A program made the translations under genes and the position numbers. From assembly GCA_904830895.1 (NCBI GenBank), contig LR882958.1:3550001-3614000 (forward strand): a stretch of DNA of 64,000 nt. Direction: 5' to 3'. The first letter of the stretch is position 1; the number at the start of each line of letters is the position of its first letter. Origin of the DNA: Planktothrix rubescens CCAP 1459/22 (lineage in GTDB: Bacteria; Cyanobacteriota; Cyanobacteriia; Cyanobacteriales; Microcoleaceae). The notes below the pieces were generated by a model, which did not search any database, had not been told where the DNA came from, and was given only the letters and a program-made list of their open reading frames with translations. Shown piece after piece: positions 53,808 to 64,000 of the stretch.

Positions 53808-53822
53808 ATAGGGAACCCTTGG

Positions 53823-54608
53823 TTAAGGCTCAATTTTGCGTTTTAAGCGTTCTCCTAATCTTAAAATTTGACAGGCTAAAATTGCCGCCCCAAACCCATT
53901 ATCAATATTCACCACTCCTACCCCGGTGGCGCAGGAATTCAACATGGTTAATAAGGGGGCTAACCCGTTAAAATTGGCTCCATAACCGACGCTGGTGGGA
54001 ACTGCAATCACCGGACAATCGGCTAATCCTCCAACTACAGTCGGTAAGGCTCCTTCCATTCCAGCGACGGCAATTAACACATCCGCATCGGCAATCATCG
54101 GCCAATTACTTAGTAACCGATGAATTCCGGCAACTCCTACATCCGATAACCGTTTTACCTCAAAACCAGATAAGGTAGCGGTGATGGCAGCTTCTTCGGC
54201 GACGGGTAAATCGGCGGTTCCGGCGGTTAAAATCGTGATTATTCCTGTAGAATTAGATCGGGGAATTTCATCCGGGTGAATAGCACAAATTTTAGCGATT
54301 TCGTAATATCTTAAATCGGGGATTTGGGCTTGTAATTGTTGATAAACATGGGGTTCAATTCGAGTTGCCATCACCACCGGATTTCGCTGACGCATTACCT
54401 CGATAATCTTAATAATTTGTTCCGGGGTTTTATTTAATCCCCAAATTACTTCGGGAAATCCGGTTCTTAATTTTCGATGATGGTCAATGCGGGCAAAATC
54501 TCCGACGGGTTCAAAATCAAAGTATTTGATTTTATCTAAGGCATCAGTCGGGGTAATTTGACCGGATGCAACGGATTCAAGTAACTGTTGTAAAGCTTCA
54601 GGATTCAT
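53823..54608 (-). CDS. larB: Nickel-pincer cofactor biosynthesis protein LarB
   Basis: 261 residues. LarB carboxylates nicotinic acid adenine dinucleotide to the pyridinium-3,5-biscarboxylate mononucleotide. The C-terminal half is the PurE-like domain: ITILTAGTADLPVAEEAAIT, SDVGVAGIHRLLS, DVLIAVAGMEGALPTVVGGL, CPVIAVPTSVGYGANFNGLA. LarC and LarE are not in the window. Only 15 bp separate it from the stop... of the upstream transport gene (start 54608, neighbour end 54624), so the two are cotranscribed. Confidence 0.93.
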   Translation of the reverse strand: MNPEALQQLLESVASGQITPTDALDKIKYFDFEPVGDFARIDHHRKLRTGFPEVIWGLNKTPEQIIKIIEVMRQRNPVVMATRIEPHVYQQLQAQIPDLRYYEIAKICAIHPDEIPRSNSTGIITILTAGTADLPVAEEAAITATLSGFEVKRLSDVGVAGIHRLLSNWPMIADADVLIAVAGMEGALPTVVGGLADCPVIAVPTSVGYGANFNGLAPLLTMLNSCATGVGVVNIDNGFGAAILACQILRLGERLKRKIEP

Positions 54609-54623
54609 CAGAATTTAAACAGA

Positions 54624-56390
54624 TTATTCGGCAATTTTGAGTTCATACAAATTCCAAAATCCTCCCCCTAATGGTGTGTATTCAACGCCTTCAACCCGAT
54701 CTCGGATGGCTTCAAAGGCGAGGGGATTTACCATATATAATAGGGGCAATTCTTCGGAAATAATTTTTTGGGCTTTTCCATAGAGTTCTTTACGTTTTTT
54801 CGGATCAAATTCCTGGGAAGCCTTCACAAATAAATCATCTATTTGTTGTTCCCAATCGGAAACTTGCCAATCGGTAATCCCGGTTTCTCCGGGTTGGGGC
54901 CCCTGATTAAATGTGTGTAACCGTCCCTGCACTGACCAAATATTATAACCCCCGTGAGGTTCAATTCCTCCTCCACTGAATCCCCCTAAATAGGCATCCC
55001 AATTCCGAGAACTGGAAAGACGTTCGACTAAGGTATTAAAGCTGAGAAATAATAAATCAACTTGAATCCCTATTTTACCCAGGTCTTGGTTAATTTGGGT
55101 AGCCATTTGTTCCCGAATTTTTTTCCCAGCACTGGTTAAGAGGGTAAAACGAACCTGATTACCTTCACTATCAATTAACTGATCTTTATCATTATACTTA
55201 AACCCCGCATCAATTAGCATTTGTCTAGCTTTTTCGGGATTGTGTGTATAGGTTTTTAATCCTGCTTCTGGGGATAGATAAAAGGGGCTTTGGACTGGAA
55301 TGGGAGAATGTTGCAGTTCTCCTAATCCTAAATAGAGATTATTTTTCATCACTTCCCGATTAATGGCATAATAAACCGCCTGTCGGAAGGCTTTATTATT
55401 AAACCATTTAGACTTAATTGGATCAACAAAGGGTTTCCCTTGAGCATTTTTTCCCCGATTCATATTCAATGACATGAACACGGTTCCCATATCGGGGCCA
55501 GAATTATAAATAGTATATTTCCCTCGTTTTTCTTCGGGTTTTAATAAGGGAAATGTTTCCGTTTGTATGGTTAAAGTATCTAAGGAACCGGAACGAAAAT
55601 CCAATAATTGAGTATCGGTACTTTCAATAATTTGCCAGACAATTTCTTCAATATAGGGTTGGGGATTTCCCTGTTCGTCTTTTCGCCAATAATAGGGATT
55701 TCTTTCTAAAATTACCCGTTGATAAGGAGTATAACTTTTGATCCGATATTGACCATTACCAACAATATCTTGAGGGTTGGTATCGGTTCCCCAAGTAGTT
55801 AAAAATTTGGGGTTTCCCTCACTATCTGTTTCGGTAATTGAATCTTTTAAAATGTGGGCTGGTAAAATACTTAATCCGGCTACATATTGTAAAAAAGGTG
55901 CAAAGGGTTCAGCAACGGCAAACTCCACCCGACGATTATCTAATTTTTTGACCGTGGGAAAGCTGCGACTTTTTCCCACTCGTAAAATATCTTTAAAACT
56001 GCTGGGAATTTTATCGTTTAAATAAATATCGTTATAGGTAAAAATAATATCATCGACGGTTAAGGGTTTTCCATCTGACCACTTCAACCCGTCTTTTAAA
56101 GTAATAATAATTTTTTGTTTATCATCAGAAATTTCCCACCCTTGGGCTAACCCCGATTTCGGCATTAATTCTCCGGTTACGGGGTCGTCCTGAATTAACG
56201 GGTCATACAAATAACCAAAGACGGTATAGGCCGATTGACTCAAGGGCGGATTAAAGGTGGCTGGGCCGCTGGGCGTGGCGACCACCAACCGAGACGGAAT
56301 TTGGGATTGAGCGGTACTACAGGCACTCATAACCAGGGCTAAGAGGATGAATAAAGTCTTTTGGAACCAATAAGGTTTGAATAGAATCAT
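54624..56390 (-). CDS. Peptide/nickel-type ABC transporter substrate-binding lipoprotein
   Basis: 588 residues, SBP family 5. The lipobox VMSAC gives a lipidated C24 after a hydrophobic signal. Conserved family motifs are SGPATFNPPLSQSAYTVFGY, LYDPLIQDDPVTGEL, ITLKDGLKWSDGKPLTVDDI and FRQAVYYAINREVM. Such proteins deliver oligopeptides or, in some subgroups, nickel; the adjacency to larB, a nickel-cofactor gene, makes nickel an attractive but unproven ligand. Permease and ATPase genes are absent here, which is common in cyanobacteria. Confidence 0.9.
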   Translation of the reverse strand: MILFKPYWFQKTLFILLALVMSACSTAQSQIPSRLVVATPSGPATFNPPLSQSAYTVFGYLYDPLIQDDPVTGELMPKSGLAQGWEISDDKQKIIITLKDGLKWSDGKPLTVDDIIFTYNDIYLNDKIPSSFKDILRVGKSRSFPTVKKLDNRRVEFAVAEPFAPFLQYVAGLSILPAHILKDSITETDSEGNPKFLTTWGTDTNPQDIVGNGQYRIKSYTPYQRVILERNPYYWRKDEQGNPQPYIEEIVWQIIESTDTQLLDFRSGSLDTLTIQTETFPLLKPEEKRGKYTIYNSGPDMGTVFMSLNMNRGKNAQGKPFVDPIKSKWFNNKAFRQAVYYAINREVMKNNLYLGLGELQHSPIPVQSPFYLSPEAGLKTYTHNPEKARQMLIDAGFKYNDKDQLIDSEGNQVRFTLLTSAGKKIREQMATQINQDLGKIGIQVDLLFLSFNTLVERLSSSRNWDAYLGGFSGGGIEPHGGYNIWSVQGRLHTFNQGPQPGETGITDWQVSDWEQQIDDLFVKASQEFDPKKRKELYGKAQKIISEELPLLYMVNPLAFEAIRDRVEGVEYTPLGGGFWNLYELKIAE

Positions 56391-56504
56391 GTTACAAAAA
56401 CTAGCTAATTTCTATAGCAATCTTAAATCATTCTGTTTAAAAGCTTAGTATGCCTAAAATCGCCTCCACCTCCTGTCCCCTGCTATAACGGGTGAATTCT
56501 ATAG

Positions 56505-56614
56505 TAGGACTTACGCATGGGGCCGAGAAACCGGGTTTTTTAGAACATAAGTGGGTTACAACGCAGTATTTTCGTAAAAAAACCCGGTTTCTTTGGCTGG
56601 GTGCGTAAGTCCTG
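56505..56614. mobile_element. Palindromic MITE-like element with TATAG duplication
   Basis: TAGGACTTACGCA (56505-56517) and TGCGTAAGTCCTG (56602-56614) are terminal inverted repeats with 12 of 13 matching. An inner pair, GAGAAACCGGGTTTTTT and AAAAAACCCGGTTTCTT, makes the element nearly self-complementary. TATAG flanks it on both sides (56500-56504 and 56615-56619). A 43-bp half copy lies at 63246-63288. Confidence 0.8.
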
Positions 56615-56640
56615 TATAGAAAATTTTGGTAATTTATGCA

Positions 56641-56655
56641 CGATAATGATTATCA
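56641..56655. promoter_or_regulatory. Zur-type operator 1
   Basis: CGATAATGATTATCA matches the 7-1-7 palindrome TGATAATNATTATCA, which I recall as the cyanobacterial Zur box, at 14 of 15 positions. It ends 9 bp before ATG 56665, so repression would block the promoter or initiation. Fur boxes are similar; gene content argues for Zur. Confidence 0.8.
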
Positions 56656-56664
56656 TTATATTCT

Positions 56665-57447
56665 ATGAATCAACCTGTAATCATGGCCGTAGCGGGCCGG
56701 GCCGGAGTCGGCAAAACCACCTGGATTCGACAGCAAATAGCGACAGAATCCTTGCCAGTATTATATTTCAGCCCCGGAACAGGCTCAGTCCCCATAGACC
56801 AAACCTGTATCTCTGCTGAATTTCCCCAAGTGAAAACCCTAAGTGACGCCCAAAAATCCTTACTCACCAAACACTTAATAGATGGTGGCGTAGCCTACAT
56901 TGAATTGGGGTATTACCTGCAACTTGATGCCCTCAACAGCTTGCTAGAGGCTTTTCCCAGTCGCCGCGTCTGCATAGTACCGCCGAATACAAAAGACAGC
57001 GAGTGGCAAAATTGGGCCGATGAAACTGTCGAGGGAGTATCAATCAATCAGCAAGGGGAACAACTATCAATTTGGCGATTACCCCTGCAAGGAAATGTCA
57101 TTGACCCCGGAAGTCTCGATGTTTTTTGGTATCAAGAAATGACCGAAGGAGCCTATGGCAAAATTCACAGAGCCAAAGGCATTTTTGACATCGCTGATGG
57201 GCGCTCTTTTTACTTAGATTTCGTTGCTGAACTTGCAGAAACCAAATATGAAGAATTGAATCTCCCCCTCTGGCTAGAAGGCAAACCCCAACGCTTCAGC
57301 GGGATCGAAATTATCGGCGAAAACTTAGATGAAACCTCATTGCTGCAAACTTTAGAAGACTCCTGTTTGTCAGAAGCAGTAATCTTATATTACCAGCAAC
57401 AAGTTAAAGATTCAATGTCATTATCAGCAGAGGAAGAAACAACATGA
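56665..57447 (+). CDS. Reduced COG0523/CobW-like P-loop protein
   Basis: 260 residues. Walker A is VAGRAGVGKTTWIRQQIA. The middle is shorter than in COG0523 GTPases and lacks the CxCC metal motif and the NEFG segment. The C-terminal ~95 residues (IHRAKGIFDIADGRSFYLDF ... EIIGENLDETSLLQTLEDS) fit the CobW C-terminal domain. COG0523 proteins deliver zinc or other metals to client enzymes; this reduced form may be a partner or regulator. There is no Shine-Dalgarno before ATG 56665, which lies directly behind the operator; ATG 56683 (MAVAGRAGVG) is an alternative. Its end overlaps the phosphoesterase start by 4 bp. Confidence 0.75.
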   Translation: MNQPVIMAVAGRAGVGKTTWIRQQIATESLPVLYFSPGTGSVPIDQTCISAEFPQVKTLSDAQKSLLTKHLIDGGVAYIELGYYLQLDALNSLLEAFPSRRVCIVPPNTKDSEWQNWADETVEGVSINQQGEQLSIWRLPLQGNVIDPGSLDVFWYQEMTEGAYGKIHRAKGIFDIADGRSFYLDFVAELAETKYEELNLPLWLEGKPQRFSGIEIIGENLDETSLLQTLEDSCLSEAVILYYQQQVKDSMSLSAEEETT

Positions 57448-58259
57448 AAATTGCAGTTATGTCTTGCATTCATGGTAACTATGAAGCCTTGAATGCAGTT
57501 TTGACAGATATTGACCAACAGAAAGCTGATAGCATATTTTGTCTGGGAGATTTAGTTGGTTATGGCCCCCATCCTCACGCAGTTGTTGAGCAAATTCGCT
57601 CCTTAGATATTCCCACTTGTGCGGGATGTTGGGATGAAGATATTGTCGAAGGCTTAAACTCCTGTGAATGTAGTTATCCCTCAGTGTTAGCAGAAAAACG
57701 GGGCCAATTAGCTCACGAATGGACTAACCAGAATATCTACCCTGAAACGCGGGAATATTTAGCACAATTGCCCCATAGTTTAAAGAAAAATAACCTTTGT
57801 TTTGTTCATGGTAGCCCCCATACAGCCCATGAGTATTTATTGCCCGAATTAGATGCTTTCATCGCCTTAGAAAGAGTCTTATCTACTGGTGCTGATGTAC
57901 TATTTTGCGGTCACACTCATGTGCCTTATGTCCGCACTTTAGATAGCGGTCAATTGCAGGTAAAAGTAACCGATGCTGACGGAAAAATAGATAATGTTTT
58001 GAGTTTTAATGCGCCTGTTTTAAAGATTGTTAATGTCGGTTCGGTTGGAGAACCCCGACATGGAAGACCAAATGCTACTTACGTTATTTACGATGAAGAT
58101 ACACAAAATGTGACATTAAGAGAGGTTGAATATGATTATCAAAAAACCTGTGCTGCGATTATCGAAAAAGGTTTACCTCCTATTTTTGCATGGCGTTTAG
58201 CCAGGGGTTTAGAGTTTGCAGAAAGAGCCGACGATCCTACTCATGTTTGTGCAAGATAG
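57444..58259 (+). CDS. Calcineurin-like phosphoesterase with Cys-substituted metal site
   Basis: 271 residues. The metallophosphoesterase fold is clear: motif I MKIAVMSCIHGNYEALNAVL, motif II FCLGDLVGYGPHP, motif III region CAGCWDEDIVE, motif IV FVHGSPHTA, motif V LFCGHTHVPYV. Two substitutions stand out. Motif I has Cys where the bridging-site Asp of SDIHGN is expected, and motif III has GCWDE where GNHD is expected; further Cys lie in NSCECSY. The site could bind a thiophilic metal such as zinc. Start overlaps the previous gene (ATGA), so they are translationally coupled under Zur operator 1. Substrate unknown. Confidence 0.88.
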   Translation: MKIAVMSCIHGNYEALNAVLTDIDQQKADSIFCLGDLVGYGPHPHAVVEQIRSLDIPTCAGCWDEDIVEGLNSCECSYPSVLAEKRGQLAHEWTNQNIYPETREYLAQLPHSLKKNNLCFVHGSPHTAHEYLLPELDAFIALERVLSTGADVLFCGHTHVPYVRTLDSGQLQVKVTDADGKIDNVLSFNAPVLKIVNVGSVGEPRHGRPNATYVIYDEDTQNVTLREVEYDYQKTCAAIIEKGLPPIFAWRLARGLEFAERADDPTHVCAR

Positions 58260-58385
58260 GTAATGGGTAATGGGTAATGGGTAATGGGTAATGGGTAATG
58301 GGTAATGGGTAATACTTCGACTTCGCTCAGTAACAGGGTAATGGGTAATGGGTAATGGGTAATGGGTAATAGGTAATTGATAATG
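58259..58385. repeat. Longest GGGTAAT heptamer array
   Basis: About seven GGGTAAT copies, the spacer ACTTCGACTTCGCTCAGTAA, then at least five more copies with drift to GGCTAAT. The array separates the two phosphoesterase-like genes and begins in the stop codon of the first. Confidence 0.9.
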
Positions 58386-58402
58386 GCTAATGGCTAAACT
58401 TG

Positions 58403-58463
58403 TAGGGTGCGTCAGACCTAAGTTTCTTGCTATAAACTTGCGTTTTGCTACTAACGCACCCTA
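58403..58463. repeat. TAGGGTGCGT ... ACGCACCCTA inverted repeat
   Basis: Perfect 10-bp terminal repeats at 58403-58412 and 58454-58463 bound a 61-bp palindromic element. A TTG start at 58445 for the next gene would lie inside it, which favours the later ATG. Confidence 0.8.
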
Positions 58464-58498
58464 ATAATACTACAAATTTCACTAAAAAGCAAATCGAA

Positions 58499-59230
58499 AT
58501 GTGGGCAATTTTAAGCGGAATTGAAGGAAATCTAAAAGCTTACGAAGCTGTACTTGATGATATTAAGCGGCAACGAGTTAGAGTCGAACAACTGTATATT
58601 CTTGGTGACTTAGTTGGGATTAATCCCGACTGCGACAAATTAGTAGAGCGTTTACAAAAACCGCGTCAAGGTGAGTTATTCCCTCAAGTTTGTACGGGAT
58701 GGTGGGAGGAACAATGCTTCATTTTACACGCTATTGGTGCTACTAGCGAACCGACTGAGTTAATTGAGCAATATGATCAAAATACAGTTAAGTTACTTTG
58801 GGATTCTGTCTCACGCAAATCTGTAGAATGGCTGAGGTCTTTGAATTTTGGTTTTCACGAACTTGACTGCTTGTTAATTCATGGTAGTACGGCCGGTGCG
58901 GCGGATAAATTAACTCCAGAAACCCCGGCTTTTGTGATGCTAGATCGCCTAATTCGCGCTGATGTGAATAACTTGTTTTGTGGTCGATCTGGTTTAACTT
59001 TCCAGTATCAATTACAAGGGGGTTCGATTAATAATACTGTGCAAACTCTTGATTCTCAAAACTCTCCTCAAACTGTTACTGTCACGGCACGTCAAGTTAT
59101 TGGAGTTGGTAATGTTGGTCGCAAACCCGGAGTTGCAACCTACACTTTATATAATCCTGAGTGCGATCGCGTTCAATTTAAGACAGTGCATTATGGAGCA
59201 AAAAAGGGCTTTCAATTATCAGCCCTGTAA
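58499..59230 (+). CDS. Degenerate calcineurin-like phosphoesterase paralogue
   Basis: 243 residues from ATG 58499. It aligns along its length with the preceding gene: MWAILSGIEGNLKAYEAVLD, LYILGDLVGINPDCDKLVER, CTGWWEEQCF, LLIHGSTAGAADKLTPETPA, LFCGRSGLTFQYQ. Almost all metal ligands are lost: motif I SDIHGN reads SGIEGN, GNHD reads GWWEE and GHTH reads GRSG; only GDLVG and HGS remain. It is therefore probably not a conventional phosphatase and may be a binding or regulatory partner of its neighbour. Same strand, separated by repeat arrays; followed 22 bp later by Zur operator 2. Confidence 0.75.
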   Translation: MWAILSGIEGNLKAYEAVLDDIKRQRVRVEQLYILGDLVGINPDCDKLVERLQKPRQGELFPQVCTGWWEEQCFILHAIGATSEPTELIEQYDQNTVKLLWDSVSRKSVEWLRSLNFGFHELDCLLIHGSTAGAADKLTPETPAFVMLDRLIRADVNNLFCGRSGLTFQYQLQGGSINNTVQTLDSQNSPQTVTVTARQVIGVGNVGRKPGVATYTLYNPECDRVQFKTVHYGAKKGFQLSAL

Positions 59231-59252
59231 GTATTTCCCGATCGTGTTAAAA

Positions 59253-59267
59253 TGATAATGATTATCA
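59253..59267. promoter_or_regulatory. Zur-type operator 2 (perfect palindrome)
   Basis: TGATAATGATTATCA matches the 7-1-7 consensus at every position. It ends directly before an ATG at 59268 and 12 bp before the ATG at 59280, which supports the later one as the thrS start. Confidence 0.85.
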
Positions 59268-59279
59268 ATGCTAAAATTT

Positions 59280-61151
59280 ATGGTCAGATCGCCAGCCCAG
59301 TCACAAACCGCTCTCAGCCAGATCCCAAAAGACCCCCAAGCCTTGCAGCGCCTTCGCCACACCAGTGCTCACATTTTGGCAATGGCAGTGCAAACTCTGT
59401 TTCCAGAGACAAAAGTGACGATCGGGCCAACTACAGATAACGGATTTTACTACGACTTTGATAGAAAACAACCATTTACTCCCGAAGATTTGAGCAAAAT
59501 TGAGGCAGAAATGCGGCGGATTATTCAAGCTAATCTGCCCGTAATTTGCGAAGTTGTAGAGCGCGAACAAATTAGGGATGAAATAGCACAATTAGGGGAA
59601 CCTTACAAACTAGAAATTCTCAACAGCATCCCAGAAGGGGAGACAATTACTCGTTACTTTATTGGCAGTCCCGATGCGGGAAAATTGTCAGATGATCCGA
59701 TAAATTCAGAACCTTCTTTAATTGAGCCAGTTACCCTGCCTCCGAGCAAATATTGGTGGGATTTATGTGCGGGGCCGCACCTTAACTTTACAGGGGAAAT
59801 CAATCCCGATGCTTTGGCTTTAGAAAGTGTAGCTGGAGCTTATTGGCGCGGCGATGAAAAGAAACCAATGTTGCAACGCATCTACGGTACTGCTTGGGAA
59901 ACACCGGAACAATTGCAAGCTTATTTGGAGCAAAAAGCAGCAGCCAAATTGCGCGATCACCGTCAAATAGGTCAAGAGTTAAAACTATTTAGTATTCAAG
60001 AAGATGCTGGCGGCGGTTTAGTATTCTGGCATCCTCGTGGAGCAGCAATTCGCTATGTGATTGAGGATTATTGGAGAAAAGCTCACTTAAATTCTGGTTA
60101 TGAACTGCTTTATACACCGCATTTAGCAAATCTCGATCTCTGGAAAACATCAGGTCACTTTGACTTCTATAAAGAGAATATGTTCGACTCGATGGATGTT
60201 GAACAACAGGCTTATCAAATTAAGCCGATGAACTGCCCGTTTCACGTTTTGACTTATAAGCATGAACTCCATTCTTATCGAGAATTGCCCCTGAGATGGG
60301 CGGAATTAGGGACTGTTTACCGTTACGAGCGATCGGGAGTTTTGCACGGTTTGATGCGGGTTCGCGGATTTACTCAAGATGATGCTCATATTTTCTGTTT
60401 GCCAGACCAAATTGCTGATGAAATTCTGGGAGTTTTGAATCTAACAGAGCAAATTTTATCGGACTTTGGCTTTAAGAATTATGAGGTGAATTTGTCCACT
60501 CGTCCCCCTAAGTCTGTGGGAACTGATCAGGTTTGGGATTTGGCGACAGCAGCTTTAATTGAAGCTTTGGATGCTAAAGGTTGGGATTATGTTACAGATG
60601 AGGGTGGGGGCGCTTTTTATGGGCCGAAGATTGATATTAAGATTGAAGATGCGATCGGCAGATTGTGGCAATGTTCTACTATTCAGGTAGATTTTAATTT
60701 ACCTGAAAGGTTTGATATGCAATATGTCGCCGCTGACGGAACCAGACAGCGACCAATTATGATTCACCGGGCGATATTTGGTTCCCTAGAGCGTTTCTTT
60801 GGAATTTTGATCGAAAACTATGCCGGGGATTTTCCTCTGTGGTTAGCACCTATACAGGTGCGAATTTTGCCTGTTAGTAATGACCAAACAGAATATGCTA
60901 AGTCTGTTGCTGATTCCTTAAAGAAAGCCGGATTTAGAGTTGAGATCGATTGCAGTTCCGAACGTTTGGGTAAGCAAATTCGCAATGCAGAATTAGAGAA
61001 AATTCCGGTTGTGATTGTAGTAGGAAAAAAAGAAGTAGCAGAACAATCTTTGAGTGTGCGGACAAGGAAACAGGGAGATGTCGGTATGTTAACTATGCCA
61101 GATTTGCAAAGTCGGCTACAGTTAGCTGTTGAGGAAAAAGTGACGATTTAG
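59280..61151 (+). CDS. thrS: Threonyl-tRNA synthetase (zinc-regulated copy)
   Basis: 623 residues from ATG 59280 (MVRSPAQSQTALSQI). The TGS domain is absent, as in other cyanobacterial ThrRS. The editing domain shows RHTSAHILAMAV and DLCAGPHLNFTGE. The class II core includes motif 2 (YRYERSGVLHGLMRVRGFTQ DDAHIFC) and motif 3 (HRAIFGSLERFFGILIENYA). The zinc-ligand Cys in KPMNCPFHV and the final His are retained, so it is not evidently zinc-independent. The C-terminal anticodon-binding domain is complete. The perfect Zur box makes it the counterpart of Zur-controlled ThrS2 copies; a second, constitutive thrS should exist elsewhere. Confidence 0.93.
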   Translation: MVRSPAQSQTALSQIPKDPQALQRLRHTSAHILAMAVQTLFPETKVTIGPTTDNGFYYDFDRKQPFTPEDLSKIEAEMRRIIQANLPVICEVVEREQIRDEIAQLGEPYKLEILNSIPEGETITRYFIGSPDAGKLSDDPINSEPSLIEPVTLPPSKYWWDLCAGPHLNFTGEINPDALALESVAGAYWRGDEKKPMLQRIYGTAWETPEQLQAYLEQKAAAKLRDHRQIGQELKLFSIQEDAGGGLVFWHPRGAAIRYVIEDYWRKAHLNSGYELLYTPHLANLDLWKTSGHFDFYKENMFDSMDVEQQAYQIKPMNCPFHVLTYKHELHSYRELPLRWAELGTVYRYERSGVLHGLMRVRGFTQDDAHIFCLPDQIADEILGVLNLTEQILSDFGFKNYEVNLSTRPPKSVGTDQVWDLATAALIEALDAKGWDYVTDEGGGAFYGPKIDIKIEDAIGRLWQCSTIQVDFNLPERFDMQYVAADGTRQRPIMIHRAIFGSLERFFGILIENYAGDFPLWLAPIQVRILPVSNDQTEYAKSVADSLKKAGFRVEIDCSSERLGKQIRNAELEKIPVVIVVGKKEVAEQSLSVRTRKQGDVGMLTMPDLQSRLQLAVEEKVTI

Positions 61152-61308
61152 GGGAATTTGATTAGCCTTTTAATTGAAATTATTTGATGGGATTTTATTT
61201 GCGATCGCTATTAGTTCCACGAGGATTTGTTGATCGGCGATCGCCCATAAGTCCTGTAAAAATTTTTGTGGGCTAGGACTTGCGCTTCAGGAAACTTTTG
61301 GGGTACAA

Positions 61309-61323
61309 TGAGAATGATTATCA
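61309..61323. promoter_or_regulatory. Zur-type operator 3
   Basis: TGAGAATGATTATCA matches the 7-1-7 consensus at 14 of 15 positions, 91 bp upstream of the COG0523 gene's ATG. It lies in the same spacing class as classical promoter operators. Confidence 0.78.
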
Positions 61324-61414
61324 TATTCAATCAGATGCGATCGTCTGTATCGCAGCTGTCTTTGAGTTATGGGGTGCGGATAGCAACACCTCTACAATTA
61401 ACCAATGAGGAACC

Positions 61415-62455
61415 ATGGCCAATCTCGATGTAGAAACCCCAGATTTTGTATTAAATATTCCCAAAAGAGGAATGCCCGTAACTATAATTACAGGCTTTCT
61501 TGGCAGTGGCAAAACTACCTTGCTCAATCAAATTCTCAAAAATAAGCAAGACTTAAAAATTGCAGTTTTAGTTAATGAATTTGGGGATATTAACATTGAT
61601 TCTCAATTACTTATTTCTACCGACGATGACATGGTAGAATTGAGTAACGGCTGTATTTGCTGCACAATTAATGATGGATTGCTTGATGCAGTTTACAGAG
61701 TCTTAGAGCGAGAAGACCGCATTGATTATATGGTGATTGAAACCACTGGAGTTGCCGATCCCCTACCGATTATTTTAACATTTGTCGGTACGGAGTTGCG
61801 GGAATTGACTAACTTAGATTCTGTTCTCACAGTCATTGATGCTGAAGCCTTTACTCCCGAACATTTCGACAGTGAAGCCGCTTTTAAACAAATAGTATTT
61901 GGCGATATTATTCTGCTCAACAAAACTGATTTGGCTACCCCAGAAAAAGTCAAAGAATTAGAAGATTATATTCGCACAGTCAAAGATGGGGCGAGGATTC
62001 TGCACTCTGAACATGGTGAAGTTCCTTTACCGTTAATTTTGGGGTTAGGATTAGCAGAAATAGATCTTTATATTAACAGATTGAATGAGGATAAACATGA
62101 CCACAAGCATGACCACAAACATGACCACGAACATGATCACAAACATGAACATCATCACTCCAAACACTTAGAAAATGATGGATTTATTTCGTTTTCTTTC
62201 CAAAGCGATCGCCCTTTTTCCATTAATAAATTCCAAGAATTTTTAACGGAGAAGTTGCCTAACGATGTATTTAGAGCTAAAGGCATTCTCTGGTTTGTTG
62301 AAAGCGATTTACGACATCTATTTCAACTCAGTGGAAAACGATTTAGCTTGGATGCTGACGAATGGGGTAAATCCCCCAGTAATCAGATAGTCTTCATCGG
62401 TCGTAACTTAGATTTGGCAAAATTACAGCAACAAATTGCTGAATGTATTGCTTAA
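61415..62455 (+). CDS. COG0523 zinc-metallochaperone GTPase with His-rich loop
   Basis: 346 residues. Walker A is ITGFLGSGKTTLLNQILK; NEFGDINID and the CxCC metal motif in LSNGCICCTINDGLLD follow. G-domain motifs ETTGVADPLP and LLNKTDLATPEK are intact. A zinc-binding His/Asp run lies at ~227-248 (DKHDHKHDHKHDHEHDHKHE), followed by the CobW C-terminal domain (GILWFVESDLRHLFQLSGKR). Members of this subfamily use GTP to insert zinc into client enzymes under starvation. It is behind Zur operator 3 and 52 bp before folE, its probable operon partner and possible client. Confidence 0.93.
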   Translation: MANLDVETPDFVLNIPKRGMPVTIITGFLGSGKTTLLNQILKNKQDLKIAVLVNEFGDINIDSQLLISTDDDMVELSNGCICCTINDGLLDAVYRVLEREDRIDYMVIETTGVADPLPIILTFVGTELRELTNLDSVLTVIDAEAFTPEHFDSEAAFKQIVFGDIILLNKTDLATPEKVKELEDYIRTVKDGARILHSEHGEVPLPLILGLGLAEIDLYINRLNEDKHDHKHDHKHDHEHDHKHEHHHSKHLENDGFISFSFQSDRPFSINKFQEFLTEKLPNDVFRAKGILWFVESDLRHLFQLSGKRFSLDADEWGKSPSNQIVFIGRNLDLAKLQQQIAECIA

Positions 62456-62507
62456 AAAATAATCTCCAAAAAACAAACACACCCGAACTACTTTCACGGA
62501 AACAACC

Positions 62508-63146
62508 ATGACTTCAGAACTGACATTTCCATTTATAGACTCTAGCATTTCTGTCAAAACTCAAGGAGAACCAGTAGTTTCTGAAGCTGAAATGATCCAA
62601 GCTGTAAGAACGTTATTACTAGGTTTAGGAGAAAACCCAGATCGCGAAGGATTACTGGATACGCCGAAGCGAGTTGTCAAAGCGTTGAAGTTCTTAACTC
62701 AAGGCTATAATCAATCTTTAGATGAACTTCTAAATGGGGCAGTATTCACCGAAAATACTGACGAAATGGTATTAGTTCGGGATATTGACATTTTCAGTTC
62801 TTGCGAACATCATATCTTGCCAATCATCGGTCGTGCCCATGTTGCTTACATTCCTAATGGCAAAGTAATTGGTTTGTCTAAAATTGCCAGAATTTGCGAA
62901 ATGTATGGACGACGTTTACAAGTTCAGGAACGGTTGACAGCACAAATTGCTGATGCACTTCAAGGACTATTAAAACCCCAAGGAGTTGCCGTTGTAATTG
63001 AAGCAACTCATATGTGCATGGTGATGCGTGGTGTACAAAAACCTGGATCTTGGACAGTGACAAGTGCGATGCGCGGTGCATTCTCAGAAGATCCTAAAAC
63101 TCGCCAGGAATTTATGAGTTTAATCCAACATAAATCTAATTTTTAG
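62508..63146 (+). CDS. folE: GTP cyclohydrolase I, type IA
   Basis: 212 residues. It converts GTP to dihydroneopterin triphosphate, the first step of folate and pterin synthesis. Zinc ligands are the Cys and His of [16 protein letters not shown] and Cys of [16 protein letters not shown], all retained. [23 protein letters not shown] is the core signature. This is thus a zinc-dependent IA enzyme, not the metal-promiscuous IB type. Its place behind the COG0523 gene suggests that the chaperone supplies its zinc. A second folE elsewhere is likely. Confidence 0.94.
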
Positions 63147-63245: not shown

Positions 63246-63288
63246 ACAGGACTTACGCACCCAACCAAAGAAACCGGGTTTTTTTACG
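63246..63288. repeat. Half copy of the MITE-like element at 56505
   Basis: ACAGGACTTACGCACCCAAC then CAAAGAAACCGGGTTTTTTTACG. It matches the complement of 56573-56615 at about 42 of 43 positions. The other terminal repeat is missing. Confidence 0.8.
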
Positions 63289-63346
63289 AATTAGTATTTC
63301 TTTGTTTGTCATTGAAATTCCCACGATATAACTATTCCCAGGAATT

Positions 63347-63829
63347 TTAATTCACTTTTTCTAATAAGGCTACTGCATAAGCCGCAATTCCTTCTTCTCG
63401 ACCCACCGGGCCTAATTTTTCATTGGTGGTGGCTTTGACACCAATTTGATCGGAATTTAGGTTTAAGGTGGTGGCAAGGCGATCGCAGATTGCGCTAATA
63501 TGGGGTTTTAATTTCGGACGTTCTGCGACAATTACAGAATCAATATTTCCGATTTTCCAACCTCGATCTAATATTAGTTGATTCACCTGTTTTAAGAGGA
63601 CTAAACTATCCGCCCCCGCCCATTTTTCATCGGTTGGGGGGAAATAATGCCCAATATCTCCTAAACTTAACGCCCCTAACATCGCATCCATAATGGCATG
63701 GGTTAAGACATCCGCATCACTATGTCCTAATAGTCCGAATTCATGATCAATTTTAATCCCACCTAAAATTAATGCCCGTCCGGGGACTAATTTATGAATA
63801 TCATAACCATTACCAATGCGAATATTCAT
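63347..63829 (-). CDS. ispF: 2-C-methyl-D-erythritol 2,4-cyclodiphosphate synthase
   Basis: 160 residues. It cyclises CDP-ME-2-phosphate in the MEP isoprenoid pathway, feeding carotenoid, phytol and quinone synthesis. Zinc ligands are Asp and His in [14 protein letters not shown] and His in [20 protein letters not shown]. The substrate-binding [20 protein letters not shown] closes the family signature. ATG 63829 is the normal start. It is convergent with folE, across a repeat-containing 200-bp gap. Confidence 0.96.
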
Positions 63830-64000
63830 GGATCTTTTTTCTAATTGAAATCAACACAGTTTTTTATTATAGGGTAAGTCTAAATAGATTTAACAAATTG
63901 AATAGACTTAACAGACTTAACAGAAACATGAGGAGATTGAGAAGCCGCGACGCAAAAAAAAGTAAATAAAATTAAAAATATACTAAGTACATAACCTAGA

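Follow-up and report, generated by a model that had tools for sequence, protein, structure and literature searches.

What does a compact group of zinc-related genes do in a cyanobacterial chromosome, how did it get there, and which regulator could read the operators ahead of it? The question is raised by a 64,000-nt stretch of the Planktothrix rubescens CCAP 1459/22 genome (contig C1:3550001-3614000, the window from here on; positions without a contig name refer to it), in which six genes on one strand are preceded by three 15-bp sites resembling those of the zinc regulator Zur. The sites and the zinc programme proved solid and of a known kind. What is new is a conserved trio of open reading frames (ORF1, ORF2 and ORF3) at the head of this island, its apparent transfer into the lineage, and a missing zur gene. 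The sites and genes are as follows.

56641..56655, + strand: operator 1, Zur-type, CGATAATGATTATCA, one mismatch
56665..57447, + strand: ORF1, 260 amino acids (aa), COG0523-like P-loop protein with CobW_C and without CxCC
57444..58259, + strand: ORF2, 271 aa, calcineurin-like phosphoesterase fold with Cys8, Cys62 and Trp63
58499..59230, + strand: ORF3, 243 aa, ligand-poor ORF2 paralogue (pseudo-phosphoesterase), no Pfam family at E ≤ 1e-3
59253..59267, + strand: operator 2, Zur-type, TGATAATGATTATCA, perfect match
59268..61151, + strand: thrS2, second threonyl-tRNA synthetase, zinc ligand motifs retained
61309..61323, + strand: operator 3, Zur-type, TGAGAATGATTATCA, one mismatch, same letters as a znuA site at C1:4142794
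61415..62455, + strand: COG0523 GTPase with CxCC (CICC), His-rich loop, cobW and CobW_C domains
62508..63146, + strand: folE paralogue, GTP cyclohydrolase I of the PF01227 type

The initial annotation had placed 15-bp sites at 56641, 59253 and 61309, with matches at 14, 15 and 14 positions and each ahead of a transcription unit. Both statements were borne out: the sites differ from TGATAATNATTATCA by one, zero and one mismatches, and three units hold six same-strand genes of the families originally named (a reduced COG0523-like protein, two phosphoesterase-like proteins, thrS, a His-rich CxCC COG0523 protein and folE). Operators 1, 2 and 3 lie 9, 0 and 91 bases, respectively, from the start codon used; thrS has a second ATG 12 bases downstream of that codon. 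Every other match in the window had at least two mismatches. At up to three mismatches the window contained 18 matches, where shuffled sequence gave 7.24 on average and none of 100 shuffles reached 18. A promoter and terminator scan stayed near the shuffle level (12 versus 16.5 and 7 versus 6.0).

The whole-genome scan that the initial annotation had suggested was run on 5,698,378 bases in five contigs. It returned 14 places with at most one mismatch, three in the window and 11 outside, nine of the latter lying within reading frames of at least 90 aa (three of these in one frame of contig C4). The remaining two were intergenic. One (C1:4471383) precedes a gene with no visible link to zinc. The other, at C1:4142794, separates znuA from a divergently oriented flavin adenine dinucleotide (FAD) oxidoreductase gene and heads a znuA-znuC-znuB-COG0523 operon, as identified with Pfam. 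Four of the 14 near-perfect places therefore precede zinc genes. The 13-bp core occurred at 11 places: the four zinc sites, six positions inside reading frames and one intergenic position ahead of an ATP-binding cassette (ABC) transporter-like gene, named by eye. Three or more near-perfect sites within 7 kb have a Poisson probability of approximately 8e-7, given a uniform rate and a stretch picked post hoc. At up to two mismatches there was no genome-wide enrichment (156 matches per strand versus 165 for the reversed pattern), and thus only near-perfect sites are informative. As in a Zur regulon, the four sites are placed at promoters and mark genes for zinc uptake, a zinc chaperone and zinc-enzyme paralogues; we take the consensus letters of the cyanobacterial palindrome as given. 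The Zur type of the three window sites is supported by the znu site with the letters of operator 3, by the four zinc units that the 13-bp core marks and by the sites ahead of ORF1 relatives described below. A Zur-type zinc-economy programme is well supported.

Two further groups of sites were seen outside the window. A two-mismatch site, TGATAATGATTATGT, occurs at a minimum of four places (C1:436581, 1037713, 1129458 and 1156240); at the one place that was read (L049) a DDE transposase gene follows it, and the site is probably carried along by an insertion sequence. On a 48-kb contig, TGATAATGATTATAA is present in three copies at a spacing of 27 bp inside a 1015-aa reading frame (G000:C4:24986-25054).

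The initial annotation was right about the Zur-type sites and the zinc programme but overlooked that ORF1, ORF2 and ORF3 form a conserved trio, and that the island has a horizontal, inverted-repeat-flanked origin. Matches to ORF1 were found in 72 of 291 genomes of the phylum, including its own, and matches to ORF3 in 131, many of them weak and to other phosphoesterases. A profile of ORF2 recovered at least 561 relatives, from which the best 80 loci were kept. All 80 are cyanobacterial by title, ranging from Microcoleus, Nostoc, Anabaena and Okeania to Synechococcus and Prochlorococcus. Microcoleus and other Oscillatoriales head the named matches, among which records of the P. rubescens genome itself may be missing. 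ORF1 and ORF2 were adjacent in 77 of these loci, and the full trio was present in 70. The start of ORF2 overlaps or abuts the end of ORF1 in 59 of the 77 pairs; in the window the overlap is 4 bp.

The trio is also linked to zinc genes and to the sites. A zinc neighbour, defined as a gene with at least 45% identity to znuA, znuB, znuC, either COG0523 gene, folE, thrS or the FAD oxidoreductase within 7 kb, was present in 53 of the 80 loci. We searched from -300 to +60 of each start for sites with at most two mismatches, dropping upstream stretches shorter than 150 bases. Such a site preceded ORF1 in 40 of 77 cases, compared with three of 80 for ORF2 and three of 75 for ORF3, which served as internal controls. 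Among the neighbours, a site was found for the FAD oxidoreductase in 17 of 24 cases, thrS in five of eight, COG0523 in 10 of 31, znuA in three of eight and folE in one of 18; the low counts for folE and COG0523 may stem from genes that are located within operons. A literature search found no description of the trio, although most subscription papers were outside its coverage and this is no proof of novelty. Judged by its sequence, the trio appears to be a new, conserved cyanobacterial module linked to Zur sites and carrying a rebuilt metal site.

The rebuilt site was recognized in ORF2, which has a calcineurin-like fold (Pfam Metallophos) and whose structural model best matched the solved phosphoesterase 3rqz, two Pyrococcus proteins and the diadenosine tetraphosphate (Ap4A) hydrolase SapH. 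Metallophosphoesterases carry the canonical set DxH / GD / GNH[DE] / H / GHxH. ORF2 retains GD, H and GHTH but has CxH and GCWD in place of the other two motifs: relative to 3rqz, DVH has become CIH and GNHD has become GCWD, so that ORF2 differs from 3rqz- and SapH-type enzymes by Asp to Cys8, Asn to Cys62 and His to Trp63. In 80 sequences (79 from the loci and the ORF2 of the window), Cys62, Trp63, Cys74, Cys76, His122, Cys155, His157, His159, His267 and Cys269 were invariant, and Cys8 was found in 78. Cys8 and Cys62 stand at what we take to be metal-ligand positions, and Trp63 at the presumed position of the family's catalytic His. ORF2 would have one Cys in each of two metal sites and no catalytic His. 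In ORF3, DxH, GNH and GHxH are all lost.

ORF1 combines a P-loop with a CobW_C domain, its only Pfam match (24.1 bits, cut-off 22). The P-loop residues G11, G14, G16 and K17 were invariant in 28 of 28 sequences. The model of ORF1 had a predicted local distance difference test (pLDDT) score of 90.2 and 1440 PDB matches at E ≤ 10, of which three YjiA entries alone reached E ≤ 1e-3. It differs from COG0523 metallochaperones in lacking both CxCC and an obvious NKxD motif, and is 86 residues shorter than the COG0523 protein of the island. We infer that ORF2 is a zinc-holding protein derived from a phosphoesterase and ORF1 its nucleotide-driven partner.

The protein encoded at 61415-62455, in contrast to ORF1, has the full outfit of a COG0523 metallochaperone such as YjiA, YciC/ZigA or CobW: P-loop, CxCC, NKTD, His-rich loop, cobW domain and CobW_C. 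Second copies of thrS and folE, another point raised by the initial annotation, were both present elsewhere on the chromosome, at C1:3526347-3528092 (53-54% identity to the island copy) and C1:2035099-2035629, respectively. The zinc-ligand motifs, as we take them to be for these two families, are intact in both thrS copies and both folE copies, which makes the island enzymes unlike zinc-free replacements; we rejected that candidate on these grounds. FolE2 (COG1469) is the zinc-independent type IB enzyme. The island folE does not belong to that family: it matched PF01227 with 258.5 bits and retains both CEHH and the second Cys. The island threonyl-tRNA synthetase (ThrRS), when compared with the other copy, carries a 27-residue insertion in its editing half, before the WWDLCAGPH stretch. 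The Anabaena enzyme T2 is described in passages of PMC4787780 as zinc-requiring and editing-impaired, also with an insertion in the editing half. In our own reading, the two insertions correspond.

How the island reached this position can be judged from its edges and from related genomes. The edge features are the following.

56505..56614, strand not assigned: left edge, 110-bp element resembling a miniature inverted-repeat transposable element (MITE), arms 56506-56541 and 56578-56613, 72% complementary, inner 16 bp perfect
63247..63290, strand not assigned: right edge, 44 bp that repeat part of the left element in inverted orientation (97.7%)
63304..63331, strand not assigned: 28-base alignment with the 3' end of a sensor-kinase gene in the congener G292, the point at which collinearity with G292 resumes

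Within 297 kb of own-genome sequence examined (overlaps counted twice), the 44-bp repeat occurred at the island edges alone. ORF2 was found in none of eight congeners, and the locus itself was compared in one of them, G292. The left neighbour in G292 aligns to window positions 53813-56432 and the right neighbour to 63304-63868, both at 85% identity, with 76-84% leftward of 53813. Between the same neighbours, G292 has genes for a solute-binding protein and for a sensor kinase of 1180 aa in place of the island. The 28 bases at 63304..63331 are a probable relic of the replaced gene, and this alignment of the kinase-gene 3' end at the right edge indicates that the island probably replaced older DNA.

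A genome from another genus of the family, G129, has the order ORF1-ORF2-ORF3-COG0523 with the identical 15 bp of operator 1 ahead of its ORF1 relative. Its similarity to the window starts at 56615. DNA identity is 93.9% and 93.7% for the trio and 92.2% and 87.5% for two pieces of COG0523; the other match among the sequence compared comprised two pieces of the FAD oxidoreductase gene (74-76%). Neither thrS nor folE was found at the G129 trio locus. With alternative genes and absence from congeners (the former seen in the one congener compared at the locus), foreign similarity and flanking repeats, the island of approximately 6.6 kb looks horizontally transferred and derived in this lineage. 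The gap between ORF2 and ORF3 contains an array of the heptamer TAATGGG (58260-58380). It seems to be a later insertion, because the similarity to G129 is interrupted at 58313-58466.

Control of the island by Zur in P. rubescens itself, which the initial annotation had implied, was not supported: a zur gene was not found. A search of the genome for the FUR family yielded three genes, which by their residues we read as one Fur-like, one PerR-like and one without either CxxC pair. The ligands of SynZur are D77, H79, C95, H115 and two CxxC motifs, according to passages of PMC9337993, and none of the three genes has the cyanobacterial Zur ligands. The family and protein searches scored all candidates (10 of 10 and seven of seven) with zur absent among them, and a congener Zur matched the three known FUR genes at 24-27% identity and nothing further in the genome. 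We therefore speak of a Zur-box island rather than one that is Zur-regulated in this strain. By comparison, all seven near-complete congeners have four FUR genes, and an eighth that is 73% complete has three. The fourth gene, read in the seven congeners and five other relatives, has the SynZur ligand pattern; two further FUR genes fetched from relatives are of the PerR type.

At the place that zur occupies in G296 and G293, the P. rubescens chromosome is continuous but different, and internal to the contig. The assembly has a stated completeness of 100% and one contig of 5.46 Mb. The zur region is rearranged between congeners (G296:C112 and G293:C19 versus C1:4878000-4912000), G296 being inverted relative to both P. 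rubescens and G293. When DNA of the zur neighbourhood was searched for, simple repeats limited scoring to 40 of 208 candidates, so loss is claimed for zur alone and not for neighbouring genes. Four ORF2-bearing relatives (G300, G172, G008 and G002) also have zur, indicating that the trio and Zur can coexist. The divergent third FUR protein (C1:268112-268462, L051) was considered as a Zur and rejected because both CxxC pairs are missing from it; its PDB matches, taken by themselves, did not assign it to a class. Congeners have matches of the same profile range and score. None of four FUR proteins, the congener Zur among them, reached an NCBIfam cut-off.

With a little more confidence than doubt, we hold that this is a transferred zinc-economy island with Zur-type operators, whose trio would hold or deliver zinc, and which, after the loss of zur, would be left without zinc control. 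The island would have arrived horizontally and displaced two unrelated genes, bringing a Zur-type operator for each of its three units. In hosts with Zur, zinc-loaded Zur would occupy these promoter operators, and loss of zinc would free the promoters. The island proteins would then keep zinc-requiring steps going on little zinc: ORF2 may hold zinc in its Cys-substituted two-metal site and Cys/His tail, ORF1, as a P-loop nucleoside triphosphatase (NTPase), may drive loading or release, and ORF3 may be a structural partner. The COG0523 protein would be a fellow deliverer, with ThrRS2 and FolE2 (here the product of the island folE) as clients. The most likely loss of zur would probably leave the operators orphaned, with the island and znuACB expressed without zinc control. 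If true, near-perfect operators in a zur-less strain amount to a natural experiment on a metal regulon losing its sensor.

Comparison with known systems bears on several of these steps. That thrS2, COG0523 and folE2 are Zur targets in Anabaena, as the initial annotation had stated for thrS2, folE and COG0523 genes, has been published (passages of PMC4787780 and PMC6103462), and the thrS2/COG0523 part of the island resembles the thrS2 operon of Anabaena sp. PCC 7120. The island differs from that operon by its three operators, the trio ahead, the lack of a detected zur and the signs of transfer. The Anabaena operon runs from all4725. Passages of PMC4787780 report that ThrRS2 needs zinc, that its affinity is not comparatively high and that its activity at low zinc is unexplained; the trio is a candidate for the missing helper that keeps ThrRS2 active at low zinc. 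In Synechococcus sp. PCC 7002, a zur mutant showed raised hemB-II, folE-II, GTPase-like protein and FAD oxidoreductase (passages of PMC4628125). The corresponding Zur cluster on pAQ7 (hemB-II, folE-II, G0131, G0132), compared by annotation, shares with our loci a GTPase-like protein, a FAD oxidoreductase and an annotated phosphoesterase; thrS is not named in those passages. According to passages of PMC9337993, Zur controls two uncharacterised genes next to znuA in Synechococcus WH8102. More speculatively, and in our estimate rather unlikely, the trio would be an undescribed zinc machine of cyanobacteria, marine picocyanobacteria included: a COG0523-derived NTPase without the metal site, translationally coupled to a Cys-rebuilt phosphoesterase zinc holder and a dead paralogue, would help to charge ThrRS2 and FolE2 at low zinc, as a mobile cassette with its own operators that is Zur-free here.

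A number of observations weigh against the transferred, zur-less zinc island. No zinc neighbour from our list was present in the DNA fetched for 27 of the 80 trio loci (some contigs being short), 37 of the 77 upstream regions of ORF1 had no site at up to two mismatches, and only some of these site-less genes can be seen to follow folE, COG0523, znu or FAD oxidoreductase genes. Position 8 of ORF2 is Asp in two of the 80 sequences, and the ORF2 model has a mean pLDDT of 75.9 and is poor at 65-80 and 254-271, where the extra Cys and His residues lie. The GC content (41.3% for the island, 40.4% for the window) gave no sign of transfer. The absence of zur is based on one assembly of five contigs. 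In Anabaena, attempts to find an interaction between the neighbours ThrRS2 and COG0523 failed, according to passages of PMC4787780. The phosphoesterase G0129 of the Synechococcus 7002 Zur cluster, whose likeness to ORF2 is by annotation alone, was not raised in the zur mutant (passages of PMC4628125), which counts against our view of the trio unless G0129 is no ORF2 orthologue.

Several of the same data can be read otherwise. The island could be an ordinary Zur-regulated one, with zur present in the strain but dropped from the assembly on a small contig or in a lost block. We consider this unlikely, though worth taking seriously: four near-perfect sites still precede zinc genes, zur occurs in all near-complete congeners, and its neighbourhood is rearranged in P. 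rubescens, where assemblies can fail; yet the assembly is rated complete with one very long contig, the zur place of G293 and G296 matches a continuous internal part of it, and the family and protein searches, which scored all their candidates, returned no zur. That another FUR paralogue, either Fur or the divergent third protein, reads the operators and ties the island to iron or redox is quite improbable. Three FUR-family genes are left to do so, and the 7-1-7 motif is presumably also the classical Bacillus Fur motif, but the four sites mark zinc genes.

An enzymatic role for ORF2 and ORF3, as active nucleotide phosphohydrolases of the Ap4A type that, like SapH, would clear a stress nucleotide under zinc limitation, also seems improbable to us, as two ligand positions and the catalytic-His position of ORF2 are changed (positions 62 and 63 in all 80 sequences) and most ligands are lost in ORF3. 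The idea that the site matches arose by chance in a random gene neighbourhood is barely credible. It draws on the missing enrichment at two mismatches, but the sites cluster, site and gene order recur across the phylum, and the znu operon carries the 15 bp of operator 3; the site footprint upstream of ORF1, against its two internal controls, and the clustering probability led us to reject it.

The FAD oxidoreductase divergent from znuA in the C1:4142794 region is of the Lys/Orn monooxygenase-like type, and relatives of it were present in 26 of the 80 trio loci. G129 has two Zur-type sites at a distance of 351 bp (C7:1060116 and 1060467, L373), which precede two divergent genes, one for the FAD oxidoreductase and the other a 98-aa ORF whose end is Cys-rich.

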